Source: Cnuella takakiae
GTDB taxonomy: Bacteria > Bacteroidota > Bacteroidia > Chitinophagales > Chitinophagaceae
Assembly (NCBI RefSeq): GCF_001953305.1
Contig: NZ_MTFE01000010.1
Coordinates: forward strand, 1,084,187-1,148,186
Length of the DNA stretch: 64,000 nucleotides
Direction: 5' to 3'
Of the stretch, positions 20,901 to 61,487 are shown in pieces; the first letter of the stretch is position 1, and each line of letters starts with the position of its first letter. The notes under the pieces were generated by a model that did not search any database, was not told the DNA's origin, and was given only the letters and a program-made list of their open reading frames with translations. The position numbers and the translations under genes were made by a program.

Positions 20901-20940
20901 GCGTGAGTGGTGAATGGGCAATGGTGAATAGTGAGTAGGG
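20901..20940. repeat. R4 fragment
   Basis: GAGTGGTGAATGGGCAATGG and following GTGAATAGTGAGTAGGG belong to the family that is inserted in hemC. This copy is intergenic and only one arm is clear. Confidence 0.6.
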
Positions 20941-28774: not shown

Positions 28775-29773
28775 TCAAACCCAATCCCGTGGATGCAAAC
28801 AGGCATCCAGCAAGTCAGCTTCGGGGCTGCCGGGCTGGGGTTGGTAGTTGTATTCAAAACGCACGGTTGGCGGAAGGCTCATCAGGATGCTTTCAATCCT
28901 GCCGTTGGTCTTCAACCCAAATAGGGTGCCGCGATCGTGCACGAGGTTGAATTCGGTATAACGTCCGCGGCGGATCTCCTGCCAATGCTTGTGTGCATCA
29001 GTGTAAGGCATATCCTTGCGTTTGTTCACAATAGGAACATATGCTTGTACAAATGCATCGCCGCAAGCCTGTCCGAAGGACATCCAGAAGTCCATTCCAC
29101 GGGCCCCTGCGGTGGAGGAGGATTGAGCAGCACTTAACCTGCCTTGGTAATCGTAGAAGATACCGCCAATACCACGTCGTTCGTTGTTGCGGTGGTAGTT
29201 CACAAAGTAATCATCACATACTTTCTTGAACGTCGGGTAAAATGAAGGGTCAAACTGATCGCACACCGTTTTGTATGTTCCATGAAAATGCCTGGCATCT
29301 TCTTCAAACAAATAATAAGGGGTAAGATCGGTACCGCCACCAAACCAGCGGTCAATGGTTTCGCCCGCTTCGTTATACAGTTCGAACATACGGTAGTTGC
29401 AATGCACCGTAGGTACAAATGGATTCAAAGGATGAATCACTAACGATAAGCCACAGGCAAACCAGGAGTGCCCGTTGATTTTGAGTTGGGTGCGCATGGC
29501 GTCTGTTACTTCACCAAACACTACAGAGGTATTGACGCCGCCTTTCTCAAATACATCACCACCTGCAATCACCCTTGTTTTGCCACCGCCACCTTCGGGG
29601 CGTTCCCATTTGTCTTCTATAAACTTGGCCTTGCCATCCGATTCTTCCAATGCCGAACAGATGCGGTTTTGCAAGTCGTAGATATAGGCGATCCATTGGT
29701 CTTTAACGGCCCCTCCCCGGCCCTCCCCGGTGGGGAGGGAGTTTGAGGCAAAAGCTTGACTATTTTGTTCCAT
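28775..29773 (-). CDS. hemF: Oxygen-dependent coproporphyrinogen III oxidase with repeat-derived N-terminus
   Basis: A 332-residue HemF, converting coproporphyrinogen III to protoporphyrinogen IX with O2. The core is intact: WERPEGGGGKTRVI, FEKGGVNTSVV, FGGGTDLTPYYLFEEDARHFH, NERRGIGGIFYDY, GRYTEFNLVHDRGTLFGLKT. Residues 12-22 ([11 protein letters not shown]) are encoded by an R5 palindrome at 29708-29743. The family normally begins close to what is here KDQWIAYIYDLQ (residue 24). The likely start is ATG 29773, outside the repeat; a GTG lies one codon earlier. It follows hemE by 47 bases. Confidence 0.94.
   Translation of the reverse strand: MEQNSQAFASNSLPTGEGRGGAVKDQWIAYIYDLQNRICSALEESDGKAKFIEDKWERPEGGGGKTRVIAGGDVFEKGGVNTSVVFGEVTDAMRTQLKINGHSWFACGLSLVIHPLNPFVPTVHCNYRMFELYNEAGETIDRWFGGGTDLTPYYLFEEDARHFHGTYKTVCDQFDPSFYPTFKKVCDDYFVNYHRNNERRGIGGIFYDYQGRLSAAQSSSTAGARGMDFWMSFGQACGDAFVQAYVPIVNKRKDMPYTDAHKHWQEIRRGRYTEFNLVHDRGTLFGLKTNGRIESILMSLPPTVRFEYNYQPQPGSPEADLLDACLHPRDWV
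29708..29743. repeat. R5 palindrome inside the hemF 5' coding region
   Basis: CCCTCCCCGGTGGGGAGGG preceded by CCCCTCCCCGG. It is in frame in hemF and is an inverted near-copy of 29824-29862, 80 bases away. Confidence 0.85.
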
Positions 29774-29820
29774 CACAAGGTTCGACGTTGCTGAATGTTT
29801 GATAAAAGTCGGAGTGTTTT

Positions 29821-30885
29821 TTATACTCCCTCCCCACCGGGGAGGGCAGGGGAGGGGCTGCTGTATTCCTTCACCGCCTCCACAAAGGCCTTCGCATGAT
29901 CTACGGGTACATTGGGCGTAATGCCATGGCCCAGGTTGGCAATGTAGCGCTGGGTGCCGAAGCCGTCGATCATTGCCTTAACGCTCTTCTTGATCTCTGG
30001 AACCGGTGCCAGCAGTTTGGCGGGATCGAAATTGCCCTGCAAAGTGATGTTGCCACCAGTCCACTCACGGGCCAGTTTGGGATCAATGGTCCAGTCGAGG
30101 CCAATGCCCGAGGCACTGCTTTGCGACAGGTCTTTTAGTGCATACCATGTGCCCTTAGGGAAGAGGATTACCGGTGCATGCTTGCTCACCGCATCTGAAA
30201 TCTGGATCAGGTAAGGCTTCGCAAAAGTGTTGAAATCGGCGGGGCTCAGCGAACCTGCCCAGCTATCAAATACTTGTACAGTATCCGCACCTGCTTTGGT
30301 TTGCGCAATCAGGTAGTCGATGGTGATATCCGTTATCTTCTGGAGCAGCTGGTGTGCCAGTTGGGGCTGTGTGTAGGCAAACTGCTTCGCCTTATCCCAT
30401 GTTTTACTGCCTTTGCCTTCCACCATGTAGCAGAGGATGGTCCAGGGGGCACCGGCAAAACCGATCAGGGGTGTGCGGCCGTTCAATTCTTGCTTGGTCA
30501 GCGTCAATGCATCCAGCACATACTTCAGGCTTTCTTCAGCGCCTGTTGTAATCAGCGCGTCGATGTCGGCCTGTGTTTGCATCACCTTGGGCAGCGAAGG
30601 GCCCTTGCCTTCTTCCATCAGCACTTCCACACCCATGGCTTGCGGAATCACGAGGATATCGGAGAATATGATGGCTGCATCAACACCCACCTGGTCGATG
30701 GGCTGCAGGGTAATCTCGGTTGCCAGTTCGGGCGTTTGTACGCGGGTGAAAAAGTCGTACTTGGCTTTCAGCTTCAGGTAGTCGGGCAGGTAGCGGCCGG
30801 CCTGGCGCATCATCCATACGGGAACACGTTCTACTTGTTCGCCACGCAGGGCACGCAGCAGCAGGTCATTCTTCAGGTTGCTCAT
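29821..30885 (-). CDS. hemE: Uroporphyrinogen decarboxylase with repeat-derived C-terminus
   Basis: A 354-residue HemE, decarboxylating uroporphyrinogen III to coproporphyrinogen [18 protein letters not shown] carries the conserved Arg residues, [12 protein letters not shown] the catalytic Asp region, [16 protein letters not shown] and [22 protein letters not shown] the family C-terminus. After VKEY the protein ends with [13 protein letters not shown], encoded by an R5 palindrome (29824-29862), with the stop at the repeat edge. This adds about a dozen residues to the usual length. The start overlaps the hemD stop (ATGA). Confidence 0.95.
29824..29862. repeat. R5 palindrome encoding the HemE C-terminus
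   Basis: CCCTCCCCACCGGGGAGGG followed by CAGGGGAGGGG. It is read in hemE in a different frame and orientation from the copy in hemF, giving a Pro/Gly-rich tail. Confidence 0.85.
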
Positions 30886-31592
30886 TCGTTGGGCTGTTTA
30901 GGGTTGCGGTAGTAGTCCATCGCATCGCGAACAAGCTGTTCTTTCGACGGACTATCGGCAACGTATATGCGATTTGTTGTGTACGTGTTCAGTGCCGCGG
31001 CAGTGGTGGTGCCAATGGCAAAAAGATCGGTGCTTTCAGGGAGCTGTGAATTGCTGTTGAAAAAAGCATGCACTGCGCTGGGGCTGTAAAACAGGATGCC
31101 GTGGTAGGCCTTGTCCAGTACATGCGGTGTTTCGATGGTGCGGTAAACCATCACCTCGTTCAGTTCAATGCCGGCTTCCTTTAGTTTGTCGGGCAGCTCA
31201 TCGCGGCGGATATCGCCACAAAAAAAAGTGACTTCCTTTTCGCCTCGGCTAATGATGGTATCGGCGAGCGCTCCTGCATTGTCGGCGGTACCGGCAATGG
31301 TACCTAAATGCGCTTCGGCCAGCAGTTTGGTGGTGTTGCCGATGGCATAAATACGCCAGCCGGGTTTTTGCCCCAGGTAATGGTGTACGGCTTCAACGGC
31401 ATTCATGCTGGTAAACACCACGGTGGTATATGCGGTGGCCGCCTTTATTTGCACCTCCACTTCATCGTTAAGGATGGGCTCGGTATCAATAAAAGAAAGG
31501 CAATCGATGTGAAAGCCTTTGTGTGCCGCTTCTTCCAGCAGGGATGCCGGAAGGGGCCGGGTACTCAGTATGGTAAACTCAGGATTTTGCAT
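30882..31592 (-). CDS. hemD: Uroporphyrinogen-III synthase
   Basis: A 236-residue HemD, which closes hydroxymethylbilane to uroporphyrinogen III. The sequence is divergent, as usual in this family, but has the two-domain pattern with [54 protein letters not shown] and [12 protein letters not shown]. The start at 31592 overlaps hemC by 14 bases; an alternative ATG at 31622 would overlap more. The stop overlaps the hemE start by four bases. Position between hemC and hemE supports the call. Confidence 0.92.
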
Positions 31593-32625
31593 TGCGTACT
31601 TGCTGAACAATTTCGTTGACATAAGGTTGGTTCAGCAATTCATTGGCCAGCAGCACACCCAGGGTTTGCGAATGCTCAGATGCAGATTCTTTTTCCACTT
31701 CCACCATGCGGCTGCCATCGGGAGCACAGATATTACCCCGCAGCCATACTTTTCCCCCGCGCATTTGCGCCAGCGCACTGATGGGCGTGGAGCAACCACC
31801 CATAAGGGTGCGGAGGAAATCACGTTCGGTTTTTACACAGAGGGCGGTATGCTCGTGGTGAAAGCTTTGGCAGGCATCAAACGCGTAGTTGTCATCTTTA
31901 CGGCAAACCACCATAATAGCGCCCTGTGCGGGTGCAGGCAGCATCCAGTCGAGGTCAATGCTCTTTTCGGGGCGGAGGTTGATGCGCTCCAGGCCGGCAC
32001 CGGCGAAGATGGCGCCGTTCCAGTTGCTTTCGGCCACCTTGCGCAGGCGGGTATTTACATTGCCGCGCAGGTTTTCGATAGTATGAGTAGGGTAGCGGTG
32101 TTTCCACTGGGCGATGCGGCGGATGGAGGAGGTGGCTAAGGTGAATGGTGAATGGTGAGTAGTGAATGGTTGATCGTGAATGGTCAATGGTGAATGGTGA
32201 ATCGCTGCCGTTGATGGCTCATTCACCATTGATGATTGCCCATTGCCCATTGCCCATTGGCCATTCACAAATCCCAGTTGCTCCAGGTCCGAATCATTTT
32301 TATACACAAAGATGTCTTTATGCGAAGCACGCTCCAGCACGGCGGCCTGTTGCAGGCCATTGGCCAGCTGGGTAGGCACGTCCTTCATGGAGTGTACGGC
32401 GATGTCGATGGTATTGTTGAGCAGGGCAATGTCCAGCACTTTGGTAAATACACCGGTAACACCTATTTCGTATAGGGGGGTAACGAGGTTGATATCACCC
32501 TCGCTTTTCATATACACCAGCTCGGAAGCGATGCCGGCGGTTTTGAGTAAATCCTGCACTAAAGTGGCCTGCCACACAGCCAGCTGGCTGTCGCGGGTAC
32601 CAATACGAAGGGGTTGTGAGCTCAT
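31579..32625 (-). CDS. hemC: Hydroxymethylbilane synthase with in-frame repeat insertion
   Basis: A 348-residue HemC (porphobilinogen deaminase); the family is usually about 300-315. It polymerises four porphobilinogens on a dipyrromethane cofactor. The catalytic Asp (HSMKDVPTQL, about residue 82), the substrate-binding ATSSIRR and LRGNVNTRLRK arginines, and the cofactor Cys (MGGCSTPISAL) are all present. Residues 120-162, from VNGQWAMGNG to TTHHSPFT, are encoded by a 128-bp R4 palindrome. They replace the short link before ATSSIRR and contain five His. No stop or frameshift occurs and the operon overlaps are kept, so I treat it as functional. Confidence 0.94.
   Translation of the reverse strand: MSSQPLRIGTRDSQLAVWQATLVQDLLKTAGIASELVYMKSEGDINLVTPLYEIGVTGVFTKVLDIALLNNTIDIAVHSMKDVPTQLANGLQQAAVLERASHKDIFVYKNDSDLEQLGFVNGQWAMGNGQSSMVNEPSTAAIHHSPLTIHDQPFTTHHSPFTLATSSIRRIAQWKHRYPTHTIENLRGNVNTRLRKVAESNWNGAIFAGAGLERINLRPEKSIDLDWMLPAPAQGAIMVVCRKDDNYAFDACQSFHHEHTALCVKTERDFLRTLMGGCSTPISALAQMRGGKVWLRGNICAPDGSRMVEVEKESASEHSQTLGVLLANELLNQPYVNEIVQQVRNAKS
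32141..32268. repeat. R4 palindrome inserted in hemC
   Basis: Plus-strand left arm: tandem GTGAATGGTGAATGGTGAGT-type units (32141-32200). Right arm: ATTCACCATTGATGATTGCC and CCCATTGCCCATTGGCCATT units (32221-32268). The loop is about 20 bases. In hemC it is read in frame without a stop. Related fragments occur at 20901-20940 and perhaps 205-232. Confidence 0.88.
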
Positions 32626-33857
32626 GATTGGGCGGTGCCGGTGGTCATAAATTTATTGATGGCCTCGAAGAAATGACAGGCTCCGCCGTTTTTTAAACGG
32701 ATCTTACCAGCCATATCATTGATCACCCGCTGGATGCGGGCATCGGCCTCCTTGCTGCAGCCGGTGCTGGAGCAAATAAAGTCGGGGTTGTTGTGGATCT
32801 CCTTCAGCTTGAGCTTGGTGGTTTTCAGCAGGGGCGCATGACGGCGCATCTGCTGCCACTCTTCAAACTCGCACATGCACTCGGCGATGATGGCCTTTGC
32901 CTTGGGGACTTCGGCTTCCCGCTTCTTCAGGGTTTCGTCCTTGAGTTTGGAGAGTTCATCCACGTTCACCAGATGTACGTTGGGCAGCACCTGTGCGTCG
33001 TCGGCAACATTATAAGGAATAGAAAGATCGATGATCAGTTTGTCGGTACCGCCTTCCAGGTGCTCTTTGCGGATCACCGGGTCGGTGGCATTGGTAGCCA
33101 CCAGGATGATATCGGCTTTGGCGATCTCTTCACCCAGGTTTTCCAGCAGGGCGTATTTCAGACCCAGCTCACCGGCCAGCTCGGCAGCCTTTTCGGGCGA
33201 GCGGTTGATGAGGGTAACGTTTTGGGTTTCAAGATAGTCCACCACGTTCTTGCAGGTATTGCGGCCTATTTTGCCTACACCCAGCAAGAGGATATTTTTT
33301 TCGGAAGGCTTTGCGATTACGTTGCGGATATACTGCACCGCGGCAAAAGCCACCGAAACGGTACCGCCACTCAGTTCGGTATTGTTCTTGATCAGTTTCG
33401 ACGATTGCAGCGCGGAGTTGAGCAGGCGTTCGGTGAAAGCGCCGATAAACCCGCGGTCTTTGGCAAACTTGCAGGCCAGCTTCATCTGTCCAACGATCTC
33501 GTAATCACCCAAAATCTGGGAGTCGAGACCGGCAGCTACCGAGTAAAGGTGCTCGATGGCTTTGTGGCCATTTTTGATATAGGCGAGTTTGGAAAAGGTT
33601 TCAGCAGAACCTGCGGTTTGCGTGCACAGCAGGTGGATGAGTTGCCCCGGGTGGTGGGCGAAACCGTACACTTCGGTACGGTTGCAGGTGGAAAGAACAA
33701 ACAGTTCGCCCAATCCGGAAGCCTTGGCTGTGTGCAGCAAAGTTTCGTACTGGTCATTGTTAATGGCAAACTGTCCGCGGATGGATGCATCCGTTTTCTT
33801 ATAGTTAATCCCTACAATGAAGAAATTGGTGATGTGCCTGTATTCGTTCGTTTCCAT
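32622..33857 (-). CDS. hemA: Glutamyl-tRNA reductase
   Basis: A 411-residue HemA, the NADPH-dependent first enzyme of the C5 heme pathway, reducing glutamyl-tRNA to glutamate-1-semialdehyde. The catalytic Cys is in LFVLSTCNRTEVYGF (about residue 58). The NADPH domain has LLLGVGKIGRNTCKNV. NRSPEKAAELAGELG and the C-terminal dimerisation helix follow. First gene of the leftward operon, with a TACCTTTG promoter element 30 bases upstream. Its stop overlaps the hemC start by four bases. Confidence 0.96.
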   Translation of the reverse strand: METNEYRHITNFFIVGINYKKTDASIRGQFAINNDQYETLLHTAKASGLGELFVLSTCNRTEVYGFAHHPGQLIHLLCTQTAGSAETFSKLAYIKNGHKAIEHLYSVAAGLDSQILGDYEIVGQMKLACKFAKDRGFIGAFTERLLNSALQSSKLIKNNTELSGGTVSVAFAAVQYIRNVIAKPSEKNILLLGVGKIGRNTCKNVVDYLETQNVTLINRSPEKAAELAGELGLKYALLENLGEEIAKADIILVATNATDPVIRKEHLEGGTDKLIIDLSIPYNVADDAQVLPNVHLVNVDELSKLKDETLKKREAEVPKAKAIIAECMCEFEEWQQMRRHAPLLKTTKLKLKEIHNNPDFICSSTGCSKEADARIQRVINDMAGKIRLKNGGACHFFEAINKFMTTGTAQS

Positions 33858-52548: not shown

Positions 52549-52652
52549 TAATTAGCTAATTAGCCAATATGCTAATGTGCTAATAAGGTAATCTGTTACA
52601 TCAGTTTGCCTTTTTAGCACATTAGCATATTAGCACATTATCACATTAGCAT
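52549..52652. repeat. R3 inverted repeat between iscU and iscA
   Basis: AATATGCTAATGTGCTAA (52566-52583) pairs perfectly with TTAGCACATTAGCATATT (52614-52631); more TAGCACATTA units follow to the iscA start. The whole spacer is repeat. Confidence 0.88.
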
Positions 52653-52653
52653 T

Positions 52654-53004
52654 ATGGTTGGAACAGACAACGCCATATTCGTAAGCGATAAGGCAAAAGA
52701 AAAAGTAAGTCAGCTGATGCAGGACGCTGGTATTGCCGGCGATGGTTCCTATTTCCTGCGGGTGAGCGTGGTAGGCGGAGGTTGCTCGGGTTTGAGCTAT
52801 AAGCTGGACTTCGACAACGAAAGCAAACCCATGGACCAGGTGTTTGAAGATAATGGGGTAAAGGTGGTAACCGACCTAAAAAGCTTCTTGTACCTGGTGA
52901 ACACCGAGCTGAAATTCTCCGATGGCCTGAATGGTAAGGGTTTTTATTTTGAAAACCCTAACGCCAGCAGAACTTGTGGTTGCGGTGATAGCTTCGCCGT
53001 GTAA
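52654..53004 (+). CDS. iscA: A-type iron-sulfur carrier protein
   Basis: A 116-residue A-type carrier with the three conserved Cys: GGGCSGLSYKLDF and SRTCGCGDSF. VKVVTDLKSFLYLVNTELKFSDGLNGKGFYFENPNA is the typical core. It passes clusters from IscU to target enzymes. It starts immediately after an R3 repeat and an R11 copy begins four bases after its stop. Confidence 0.95.
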   Translation: MVGTDNAIFVSDKAKEKVSQLMQDAGIAGDGSYFLRVSVVGGGCSGLSYKLDFDNESKPMDQVFEDNGVKVVTDLKSFLYLVNTELKFSDGLNGKGFYFENPNASRTCGCGDSFAV

Positions 53005-57926: not shown

Positions 57927-58904
57927 ATGTCGGCAAATCAGATAACCTATCTAGTTTTTGGTATCGTACTCATTGTAGCCCTGGTGCTTGACCTGGGCCT
58001 GCTGAGTAAGAGAGGTTCTACCATCACCATCCGTAAGGCATTGTACCAAACCCTGTTCTGGGTAGCACTTTCCTTTGCCTTCTTTGGCTTTATGTGGTTT
58101 GAGCACGGCAGCGCACCTGCTACCAAATACATACTGGCTTACCTGATGGAATGGAGCCTGAGTATCGACAACATCTTTGTGTTCATCCTCATCTTTACCT
58201 TCTTTAAAGTAACCGAATCGGATGCCGGCAGGGCCCTGCTCATTGGTATCCTCCTGGCCATTGTATTCCGCATCATCTTCATAGCAGTAGGTATTGAGCT
58301 GGTAGAACGCTTCCATTGGATCCTGTACATCTTTGGGGCCTTCCTGGTATATACGGGCATCAAGCTGTTTGCAAAAAAAGACGAAGAAGAATTCAACCCT
58401 GCCGATACTGCCGTGTACAAGTTTGTTACGCAGTATTTCCGGGTAACAGAAGTGGACCCCAAAGGCCGCTATATCATCCGCCTGCATAACAAGGTATTCT
58501 TTACCACGCTTGCCGTAGTGGTGTTTATCCTGGCCGCTACCGATATTGTATTTGCCCTCGACTCCATCCCTGTAGTATTGGGCGTAGTAAAGGAAGCCGG
58601 TAAAGAACTGACCGCTACCGATACCCTGGTGATTTACTCTTCCAACATCTTCGCGGTGCTGGGGCTGCGTTCCCTCTTCTTCCTGATGCGGGGTGCCGTA
58701 AACAAGTTCGATTATCTGCAACAAGGCATCGCCATTGTACTGGTATTTATCGGTTTGAAAATGCTGGTAGAAATCTTCGATGTCCATGTACCCATTTACA
58801 TCTCCCTGCTCTTTATCGTACTCTGCCTGGGTGGTTCCATCTGGTATTCTATTTACCACCAGCGTAAAGGCGTGCCGAGAGAGGTGGAGGATGGAAGCCT
58901 GTAA
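57927..58904 (+). CDS. TerC/Alx-family metal exporter
   Basis: A 325-residue membrane protein with about eight helices. The duplicated acidic motifs EWSLSIDNIFVFILIF (about residue 73) and AATDIVFALDSIPVVLGV (about residue 207) are the family signature and hold the Asp residues implicated in Mn2+ transport. Alx/TerC proteins export manganese, some loading secreted enzymes. An R3 repeat follows the stop. Confidence 0.93.
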   Translation: MSANQITYLVFGIVLIVALVLDLGLLSKRGSTITIRKALYQTLFWVALSFAFFGFMWFEHGSAPATKYILAYLMEWSLSIDNIFVFILIFTFFKVTESDAGRALLIGILLAIVFRIIFIAVGIELVERFHWILYIFGAFLVYTGIKLFAKKDEEEFNPADTAVYKFVTQYFRVTEVDPKGRYIIRLHNKVFFTTLAVVVFILAATDIVFALDSIPVVLGVVKEAGKELTATDTLVIYSSNIFAVLGLRSLFFLMRGAVNKFDYLQQGIAIVLVFIGLKMLVEIFDVHVPIYISLLFIVLCLGGSIWYSIYHQRKGVPREVEDGSL

Positions 58905-58906
58905 GT

Positions 58907-59035
58907 AATGTGCTAATGAGGTAATTAGCTAATGTGCTAATTCTGTTTGCACATCCTTGTTTTGTATTTGTTTTGTGCAAGTACAGCAACCCAATATTTA
59001 GCACATTAGCACATTGGCTAATTAGCTCATTACCC
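58907..59035. repeat. R3 inverted repeat between terC and murF-alr
   Basis: AATGTGCTAATGAGGTAATT followed by AGCTAATGTGCTAATT, and the inverse TTAGCACATTAGCACATTGG plus CTAATTAGCTCATTACC just before ATG 59037. It supplies the immediate leader of murF-alr. Confidence 0.88.
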
Positions 59036-59036
59036 C

Positions 59037-61487
59037 ATGTTTTACTCCGCTTCCACCATCGCCGCCATCATCGCTCCGCACACCCGGCTGACACAGCCCG
59101 ATGCGCCGGTGCGCTACCTGCTTACCGATAGCCGGCACCTGCTGCAGGCTGCCGATACCCTGTTTTTTGCACTGGATGGCCCAAGGCGCAGCGGCAGTGC
59201 CTATGTGACTGCTTTGTACGAGCAGGGCGTGCGCAATTTCGTGGTACGCGATGCGCCCGACAAAGACGCTTTTGCCGGAGCCAACTTCTTTGTTGTTTCC
59301 GATCCTTTGCAGGCCTTGCAGCAACTGGCGCAGCATCACCGCGAGCAGTTTTTTTTGCCCGTGATAGGTATTACCGGAAGCAATGGCAAGACCATCGTAA
59401 AAGAATGGTTGTACCAGTTGTTGCAGGAAGAAGAAAAGATTTGCCGCAACCCCCGCAGTTACAACTCGCAGGTAGGCGTGCCACTCAGTGTATGGCAGCT
59501 TGCCGAAGAGCATAGCCTAGGCATCTTTGAAGCAGGTATTTCTCAGCCCGGTGAAATGCGCCGCCTGCACGATATCATTCAGCCTACCATTGGTGTGTTT
59601 ACCAACCTGGGTGATGCGCACAGCGCGGGTTTTGCAAGCGATGCTGCTAAAGCAAAAGAGAAAGCACAATTGTTTGAAGGTGTTGCCGCCATCATCACGC
59701 AGGAAAAATACCAGCACCTATTTACCGACGCCACCCTGTTTACCTGGGGCAGGAGGGAAGACAATGAAGTAGTGGTAAAGGAAATACAGGCTGGCCACAA
59801 CAGTTCAAAACTGGTGCTTTCTTTTGGTGCAAAAATATACACCGTAACTATTCCTTTTGCAGATACGGTGGCGCAGGAAAATGCCCTGCATTGCTGCGCA
59901 GTACTCCTGTATTTAGGAAAAGACCTGAACGATTTCAGTGATCGCTTTGCGCAGCTGCATGCAGTGGATATGCGCCTGCAGTTTTTTGATGGCATCAATG
60001 GCTGCACCATCATCAACGATAGCTACAGCGCCGACATCACATCCTTTTCGCTGGCGCTGGCCTTTATGGCGCAACAGCAAACCGGCCAGGCCCGTACCGT
60101 TATTCTTTCCGATTTTATGGAAAGCGGCCGCGAAGCTTCGGACCTGTACCGCAATGTGGCCGGTGCACTGGCAAAGTATAAAGTGCAAAAAGTAATAGGC
60201 ATTGGAGCGCAAATCAGCGACTTGCTTCCCGGTGCATTGGCTGCAGGAACCAGCGCCAGCTTTTTCCCTTCAACTGATGAATTCCTGCAGCATTTCCGGA
60301 CTTCTTCTTTTCACAACGAAACCATCCTGGTAAAAGGCGCACGCCGTTTCCAGTTCGAACGCATTGCCCACCATTTTGAGCAGAAGGTGCACCAGACGGT
60401 GTTGCAGATCAACCTGAACGCCATGGTACACAATATCAGGCAGTACCAGGCGCTGCTCCAGCCCGGTACCCGTATGATGGCCATGGTGAAGGCTTTTTCC
60501 TATGGCAGCGGAGGTGCCGAGATCGCTTCCGTGCTGCAGCAAAATAATGTGGACTACCTGGGTGTGGCCTATGTGGACGAAGGTGTTGACCTGCGCCGTG
60601 AAGGCATCAGCCTCCCCATCATGGTGATCAATGCCGATGCTTCTTCCTTCGATGCCATTGTGGATCACAACCTGCAGCCGGTTATTTACAGTCCCGAACT
60701 GCTGGAGCGTTTTGAAGCTTATATCTCCGGTCAGGGATTGAGCTCTTGGCCGGTGCACCTGGAAGTAGAAACCGGCATGAACCGCTTGGGCTTTAGCGTC
60801 AACAGCATTGCTGCTATTGGCCAACGAATAGTGGAGAAAGGGCTTTTGAAAATTGAAACCGTCTTCAGCCATTTGGCTGCAAGCGAAGACCCTGCACAGG
60901 ATGCATTTACCAGTCAGCAGGTGCAAACCTTTGGGCAGGCCATTGCTTTATTGCAACAGCACATTACTTACCCTTTTATCCGGCATATTGCCAATTCCGC
61001 TGCTATTATCCGCCATCCCGCTCTGCACTACGATATGGTGCGGTTAGGCATTGGCTTGTATGGTGTGGAAACCGTAAGCGGCAGCGTAGAATTGCAGCCT
61101 GTAGCAACCTTGCGTTCTACTATTGCACAACTGAAGCAACTCCAGCCCGGAGAAACGGTGAGTTATAACCGCCGGGGTGCCATCGACCATCCCTCGCTCA
61201 TCGCCACCGTGCGTATTGGGTATGCCGATGGTTACTCGCGCCGCTTCAGCAATGGGGCAGGCAAAATGTGGGTACGCGGCCGGCTGGTACCTGTGGTAGG
61301 CACCGTATGTATGGACATGACCATGATTGATGTAACCACCGTTCCCGGTGTATCGGAGGGCGATGAGGTGATCATCTTTGGACAGGAGCTGCCCGTACAG
61401 CAACTGGCTCAATGGGGCGGCACCATTCCCTACGAGATCATGACCGGAATATCACAAAGAGTAAAGAGGGTGTATTACCAGGAGTAA
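59037..61487 (+). CDS. murF-alr: Bifunctional MurF ligase / alanine racemase
   Basis: An 816-residue fusion found in Bacteroidota. Residues 1 to about 445 are MurF, which adds D-Ala-D-Ala to UDP-MurNAc-tripeptide: ITGSNGKTIVKEWL P-loop (about 112), NPRSYNSQVGVPLSVW, IINDSYSADITSFSLALAF. Residues from about 450 are alanine racemase: the PLP Lys in MMAMVKAFSYGSGGAEIA, the catalytic Tyr in VRIGYADGYSRRF, and CMDMTMIDVT. It links D-Ala production to its use. An R6 repeat abuts the stop codon. Confidence 0.96.
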   Translation: MFYSASTIAAIIAPHTRLTQPDAPVRYLLTDSRHLLQAADTLFFALDGPRRSGSAYVTALYEQGVRNFVVRDAPDKDAFAGANFFVVSDPLQALQQLAQHHREQFFLPVIGITGSNGKTIVKEWLYQLLQEEEKICRNPRSYNSQVGVPLSVWQLAEEHSLGIFEAGISQPGEMRRLHDIIQPTIGVFTNLGDAHSAGFASDAAKAKEKAQLFEGVAAIITQEKYQHLFTDATLFTWGRREDNEVVVKEIQAGHNSSKLVLSFGAKIYTVTIPFADTVAQENALHCCAVLLYLGKDLNDFSDRFAQLHAVDMRLQFFDGINGCTIINDSYSADITSFSLALAFMAQQQTGQARTVILSDFMESGREASDLYRNVAGALAKYKVQKVIGIGAQISDLLPGALAAGTSASFFPSTDEFLQHFRTSSFHNETILVKGARRFQFERIAHHFEQKVHQTVLQINLNAMVHNIRQYQALLQPGTRMMAMVKAFSYGSGGAEIASVLQQNNVDYLGVAYVDEGVDLRREGISLPIMVINADASSFDAIVDHNLQPVIYSPELLERFEAYISGQGLSSWPVHLEVETGMNRLGFSVNSIAAIGQRIVEKGLLKIETVFSHLAASEDPAQDAFTSQQVQTFGQAIALLQQHITYPFIRHIANSAAIIRHPALHYDMVRLGIGLYGVETVSGSVELQPVATLRSTIAQLKQLQPGETVSYNRRGAIDHPSLIATVRIGYADGYSRRFSNGAGKMWVRGRLVPVVGTVCMDMTMIDVTTVPGVSEGDEVIIFGQELPVQQLAQWGGTIPYEIMTGISQRVKRVYYQE

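Follow-up and report, generated by a model that had tools for sequence, protein, structure and literature searches.

The hemC gene of Cnuella takakiae contains, at positions 32141-32268, a copy of an element of the form (TGAATGG)n - spacer - (CCATTCA)n. The element is dispersed in the genome and lies mostly between genes; in hemC it is read in frame within an essential enzyme. Repeat occupation of this HemC loop is wider than first noted and extends to many lineages of the Chitinophagaceae. We consider it probable that the loop is a permissive site, occupied again and again by intergenic palindromic repeats that are tolerated there.

The palindromic element in hemC

The window (the whole stretch of DNA analysed, 64,000 nucleotides) is part of a 5.7-Mb genome in 10 contigs. 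It exhibits an ORF (31579-32625, minus strand, 348 aa) corresponding to HemC, hydroxymethylbilane synthase (porphobilinogen deaminase), with matches to Pfam PF01379/PF03900 and a profile score of 279.6 bits against TIGR00212 (cut-off 164). The gene order is hemA (glutamyl-tRNA reductase, 32622-33857; TIGR01035, 264.3 bits, cut-off 209.55), hemC, a hemD-like gene (uroporphyrinogen-III synthase, 30882-31622; NF004593, E-value 9e-17, 61.3 bits, below the cut-off of 275) and then hemE (uroporphyrinogen decarboxylase, 29821-30885; TIGR01464, 434.6 bits, cut-off 302.95), all on the minus strand. The sequence-only reading had described both operon overlaps and all catalytic residues as intact, and this holds: hemC shares 4 bases with the hemA ORF and, with the start listed for the hemD-like ORF, 44 bases with the latter, and D82, C278, R169 and R170 (the Asp of KDVP, the Cys of GGC and the two Arg of ATSSIRR), to which we assign the catalytic roles, are invariant in 14 HemC sequences. 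The genome contains a single full hemC match; the five other HemC matches are confined to the repeat-coded stretch and its surroundings (query residues 99-168). Near the other end of this gene group, GC-rich inverted arms (CCCTCCCCGG / CCGGGGAGGG) are found about 90 bases apart at 29711-29862. The second of these arms lies in the last hemE codons and encodes the hemE tail, beyond the TIGR01464 match, which stops at residue 340 of 354.

The 128-bp element in hemC (32141-32268, minus strand) is an imperfect palindrome of the heptamers TGAATGG and CCATTCA, read in frame as HemC residues 120-162, approximately, ahead of the ATSSIRR strand. In gene order, the first arm (32219-32268, minus strand) is composed of TGAATGG-type sense units with the variants GCAATGG, CCAATGG and TCAATGG, and reads VNGQWAMGNGQSSMVN; the second arm (32141-32204, minus strand) is composed of CCATTCA-type sense units and reads IHHSPLTIHDQPFTTHHSPFT. 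TRF reports a 7-bp array at 32140-32202 and arrays of the inverted unit within 32212-32268, and an inverted-repeat search gives 54-nt arms (32143-32196 / 32220-32273) that are 70% complementary. With up to three mismatches, GTGAATGGTGAATGG has 17 matches in the window against 2.09 expected, a number reached in none of 100 shuffles, and 11 of the 17 lie in the hemC segment or across its edge. A match of this type marks a related heptamer array, GTGAGTGGTGAATGGGCAATGGTGAATAGTGAGTAG, at 20901-20940 on the plus strand, between listed ORFs of at least 80 aa. The repeat origin of the hemC segment, the limits given for it and the existence of the fragment at 20901-20940 were all part of the sequence-only reading, and each is borne out; that the hemC segment is repeat-derived is well supported. 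An RNA hairpin is predicted for 32135-32275 (141 nt; MFE -45.1 kcal/mol, z = -3.53, none of 200 shuffles as low), of which the centroid structure retains the inner part only.

In the loop alignment, residues 119 and 125 of the E. coli enzyme (1pda) match residues 117 and 163 of the Cnuella protein, so that 5 residues stand against 45, a net gain of 40 over E. coli HMBS. The ORF is open throughout, and residues 120-162 contain five histidines, as had been read from the sequence. The suggestion that the protein exceeds its family by about the length of the insert also agrees with the data, its loop having 55 residues against a commonest length of 16 among 97 family members. The insert was further described as His-rich, and this part needs qualification: the five histidines are real, but they follow from translating CCATTCA arrays, which encode PFTIHHS in every frame, and His-richness is not conserved, the 58-residue loop of Paracnuella aquatica containing no histidine.

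The 7-bp unit passes through all three reading frames, and TGAATGG arrays therefore present TGA in every frame once they are three units long. In the HemC arms (21 rows), ten sense units start in phase with a codon, and all ten are of the TCA, TCG or GCA type; an open frame leaves no room for TGA at this phase. TGA is kept by 23 of the 41 units in the remaining two phases, compared with 220 of 278 units in the other sampled genome clusters. Arrays of a 7-bp unit with TGA in every frame can thus be coding, the codon-beginning units being TGA-free variants.

The AlphaFold2 model (14-sequence input; pLDDT 81.5, pTM 0.80) predicts a largely confident HMBS fold outside residues 42-59 and 127-155, where pLDDT is below 50. 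The structural check proposed earlier thus yields a predicted disordered loop at 127-155. For FVNGQW, with which the insert starts, the model shows two short strands at middling confidence. The best 32 Foldseek matches of the model are all HMBS (TM 0.76/0.89 to 1ypn).

A dispersed, mostly intergenic heptamer family

Further copies, also in other genes, had been suggested as a check on the repeat origin, and they are abundant. In its own genome, TGAATGGTGAATGG has 76 matches when one mismatch is allowed (reversed control, 3) and 303 when two are allowed (control, 56). We sampled 46 clusters, which are the strongest ones and comprise part of the 303 matches (one of the 46 is a single match). Two-armed clusters account for 16 of them, hemC included, and all 16 have the TGAATGG arm ahead of the CCATTCA arm, the inner 14-mers being 5-90 bases apart. 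Intragenic copies are limited to two of the 46 clusters, one in hemC and one in a gene with an AAA_28 match (Pfam PF13521). The ORFs flanking many of the sampled arrays end or start within a few bases of the array. In some cases the preceding ORF ends on the array itself, its stop codon being the TGA of the first unit (for example G000:C1:1632498, 4093185, 4286123 and 4940362, where G000 is the Cnuella genome itself).

The AAA_28 gene contains an extra loop, YPIPNAQSPITSHQSLIPQ. Heptamer-derived in-frame loops occur at the same site, with different unit variants, in the Cnuella gene (L176:1694-2284, i.e. G000:C1:597093-597683) and in that of a congener, G005 (L211:1195-1791), and in none of the other 18 of the 20 orthologues read, out of 28 genomes with a match. 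In G005, 40 chosen stretches contained 29 clusters, and the AAA_28 loop is the sole confirmed in-gene cluster.

Several other candidates for in-gene copies were rejected. The cluster scan of the Cnuella genome flagged five ORFs, of which hemC and the AAA_28 gene were upheld; three further ORFs, flagged in a separate scan (G000:C1:4391162, 3086513 and 3489001), have no Pfam match. Among the remaining three of the five, an adenosine-deaminase ORF was set aside with its Pfam match starting at residue 64 and the array before the match, a Fapy-glycosylase-like ORF with its match starting at residue 52, downstream of the array, and a 92-aa ORF with no Pfam match. The other three of the four ORFs flagged in G005 comprise two with a Pfam match past the array (from residues 54 and 94, the arrays being at 15-24 and 46-53) and one without a match.

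An octamer family, TAATGTGC / TTAGCACA, is also represented in the window, by two copies at 52549-52657 and 58901-59045. These share the plan of the heptamer element, a tandem array followed by a gap and an inverted array.

Recurrent repeats in the HemC loop of Chitinophagaceae

We collected 103 HemC loci from 30 of 41 matching genomes, from a further 13 loci, and from 60 of 91 further genomes (107 matching, 16 already in the set); the last were taken largely in order of rank, a choice that gives more weight to closer relatives. Dropping six duplicates left 97 distinct proteins. The nearest named relative by HemC among those read is P. aquatica, with 86.7% protein identity outside the loop. 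The loop, counted from DIFVY to ATSS, varies from 13 to 58 residues; it has 16 residues in 41 of the 97 proteins and at most 17 in 48.

Heptamer DNA (best 14-mer with at most two mismatches) is present in the loop of 17 of the 97 genes, against 0.01 expected from windows of equal length in the same genes, and seven loops match on both strands at this limit. Looser limits give 20 against 0.2 (three mismatches) and 29 against 2.93 (four mismatches). The bearers are Cnuella takakiae itself, seven of the 17 congeners searched, P. aquatica, Niastella vici and members of seven further genera (g15, g48, g56, g59, g74, g93 and g105, of which g59 is borderline). The loops of the congeners and of P. aquatica occupy the same site with other lengths and unit variants, and the insert is accordingly neither recent nor private to a strain. 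The earlier reading of hemC as carrying an in-frame palindromic repeat stands, but what it presented as one insertion is a site recurrent across genera, which also hosts a second family. P. aquatica exhibits TCAATCG runs where the Cnuella gene has GCAATGG, which suggests in-place turnover of units. Loops of 33-51 residues with no heptamer DNA are also seen (L160 of G063, L118 and L120).

A loose regular expression for xNGxW and close variants of it matched 17 of 49 long loops. The DNA of 11 of these is 0-2 positions away from GTGAATGGTGAATGG, and that of the other six is 5-8 of 15 positions away, which hints that NGxW may have been retained as protein after its DNA drifted. Codon divergence of the ordinary kind in relatives' loops had been named in advance as evidence against a repeat origin, and the outcome is divided: parts of the loop are shared with relatives, 17 of the 97 loops lying near the repeat consensus and six of the 17 xNGxW loops having diverged from it. 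Identity at four-fold sites is 134/210 in the last eight loop codons and 2542/7095 in the rest of the gene; this comparison is partly circular, the rows having been picked by their match to the repeat, and we do not rely on it as a sign of conservation at the DNA level.

The heptamer load of a genome does not by itself predict a HemC insert: G020 has the heaviest load of 58 genomes (524 matches against 13 for the control with at most one mismatch), and a search of its HemC loop (L049) for the heptamer gave no match. A loose heptamer pattern showed no clear excess over control in three of ten genomes tested (G086, 14 against 28; G173, 47 against 105; G152, 8 against 6), and the HemC loops of G086 and G152 are heptamer-like nonetheless.

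The second family is unrelated to the heptamer and occupies the same HemC loop in two other genera. The loop of the G173 gene (L105) forms a palindrome whose arms are CCCCTTTAGGGGATGGGG (RNA z = -5.12). Matches to CCCCTTTAGGGGATGGGG with at most three mismatches number 32 in G173 (control 0), 32 in G086 (2), 78 in G150 (3) and 10 in G000 (4); in hemC itself, both arms are exact in G173, and one arm is present with one mismatch in G150. The tree sister of the G173 gene is that of G086 (L107; SH-aLRT 99), and the two proteins are 90.8% identical outside the loop with different repeat types inside it, the G086 loop being heptamer-like. We take this pair as the best sign that the site, and not one family, recurs. 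The AU test rejects a single clade for the two rows of this CCCC-type family marginally (p = 0.0458), and their separate origins stand on that marginal value.

On a HemC gene tree built without the loop, a single clade for the 16 heptamer rows as opposed to the 81 others is rejected (AU p = 5e-43), the 81 including 33 rows with longer loops, some of them maybe decayed inserts. Leaving these 33 rows uncounted, 11 label changes separate the 16 heptamer rows from 48 short-loop rows. An earlier count of 15 was discarded as an over-count, a threshold having split the near-identical L154 and L068. The tree is weak, with 46 of its 94 inner branches open, and its root was not inferred, so that it does not separate gains from losses. 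Filled and empty loops occur in sisters (L033 and L039) whose proteins are 88.3% identical outside the loop.

Such a distribution might also result from a single heptamer insertion that preceded the split of the genera and was then inherited vertically, with many losses or shortenings and re-expansion from resident units; no special landing site would then be required. The 3' arm register is common to 19 of 20 chosen heptamer-like loops, with one tie, and the six drifted xNGxW loops look as if the protein had been kept while the DNA changed. The shared register fits common descent or seeding at resident codons better than random landing, but it is a weak guide, as a bias towards it is seen in short loops too, 20 of 48 favouring it uniquely at low scores (6-12 of 21). 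Against one old insertion stand the different repeat family in the loop of two genera, the sisters L107 and L105 with their different repeats, and the 48 loops of at most 17 residues; we regard it as rather unlikely. The same register, which runs on into the conserved IAT codons resembling a unit, could instead reflect a hot spot at the DNA level: in some species the TIAT codons (ACC-ATY-GCY-ACC) resemble a CCATTGC unit, and microhomology there would seed array growth or recombination. The coincidence of the register with the TIAT codons in those 19 loops, and a unit phase that runs on into ATY-GCY in many inserted loops, favour this idea; but the CCCC-type palindromes have no such homology, the bias of the short loops makes the register a weak test here too, ACCATTGCCACC itself is found in only 3 of 48 short-loop genes, and an insertion event was in no case observed directly. 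We judge it unlikely.

That the loop is functional, binding metal through its five histidines or acting in regulation through the predicted mRNA hairpin, seems to us very improbable. PFTIHHS is what CCATTCA arrays encode whatever their frame, P. aquatica does without histidine and half of the HemC proteins without a long loop, and we found no support for metal binding by the HemC loop. Many long family loops lack heptamer DNA, which is what an ordinary low-complexity loop would predict, its likeness to the heptamer arising by chance or amino-acid bias; this view is refuted by the excess of heptamer loops over expectation, the matches on both strands and the dispersed genome copies, unless the counts are in error, and we give it hardly any credence.

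Under the permissive-loop explanation, which we prefer, elements would reach the loop rarely; strand-switching or recombination between arrays is a guess at how. Copies that break an essential enzyme would be lost, and the HemC loop would be one of few sites where 10-45 extra residues cost little. Resident arrays would gain, lose and swap 7-bp units, selection retaining only those changes that bring neither a frameshift nor an in-frame TGA, and the insert would be translated as a floppy loop with no particular role. The 5' arm has perhaps persisted in some lineages as an (L)GxxNGxW turn. A stronger form of the proposal, which we advance tentatively and think possible, is that the loop is a true landing site, entered independently and repeatedly by unrelated repeats with the aid of unit-like resident codons, and that NGxW was kept as protein in some lineages after the DNA decayed. 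If so, an essential enzyme would be gaining new coding sequence from intergenic repeats.

Comparison with known repeat systems

Palindromic elements that lie in frame within conserved genes are best known from Rickettsia and Wolbachia. We found no report of repeats in hemC or of a TGAATGG heptamer among the titles and abstract openings of the open-licence PMC articles listed by our literature searches.

Another 7-bp unit is the TAACTGA heptamer, described as direct repeats in Beggiatoaceae, Cyanobacteria and five Bacteroidetes that are mostly intergenic and contain stops in forward reading (PMC4679880). That paper places one set of two repeats within a putative F. litoralis purC, and counts 169 direct sets and one indirect repeat in its main genome (PMC4679880). 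The unit length and the intergenic preference are alike, but the unit here is TGAATGG and inverted arms are paired in 16 of the 46 clusters, so that the hemC element falls outside that family. REP and the GTAG- and CGTC-tagged palindromes are likewise dispersed and mostly extragenic; they are described as tagged and 20-40 bp long (PMC3733652), whereas the arms here are heptamer arrays and the hemC copy exceeds 100 bp. Enterobacterial and Neisseria MITEs are cited as short repeats with ORFs fused in frame to genes (PMC2229807). They have terminal inverted repeats and, in several cases, target duplications.

The sequence-only reading had likened the insert to Rickettsia palindromic elements (RPE), and in behaviour the likeness is upheld: a dispersed palindrome, in frame, at a tolerated place of a conserved enzyme. 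RPE, and the WPE of Wolbachia, are presented as dispersed palindromic repeats of 100-150 bp lying in frame in conserved genes, and an RPE-bearing Gmk as active with changed substrate affinity (PMC2229807). For some RPE, another paper leaves it undecided whether shared sites are hot spots for insertions of different origin or one old diverged insertion (PMC3767692). The hemC element is similar in its length of 128 bp, its long predicted stem-loop, its dispersal and its in-frame presence in conserved genes. It differs in its host, a member of the Bacteroidota, in arms made of 7-bp tandem units around a variable spacer, and in a mostly intergenic location (2 of 46 clusters in genes); moreover, one HemC loop hosts two unrelated families in different species. 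With two such families in one loop, and with filled and empty sisters at hand, the choice between hot spot and old insertion can be put to the test, and in an enzyme open to assay. By analogy, then, the hemC element appears to work like the Rickettsia palindromic elements; as unit, host and intergenic bias differ, we liken it to them by behaviour and do not file it as an RPE.
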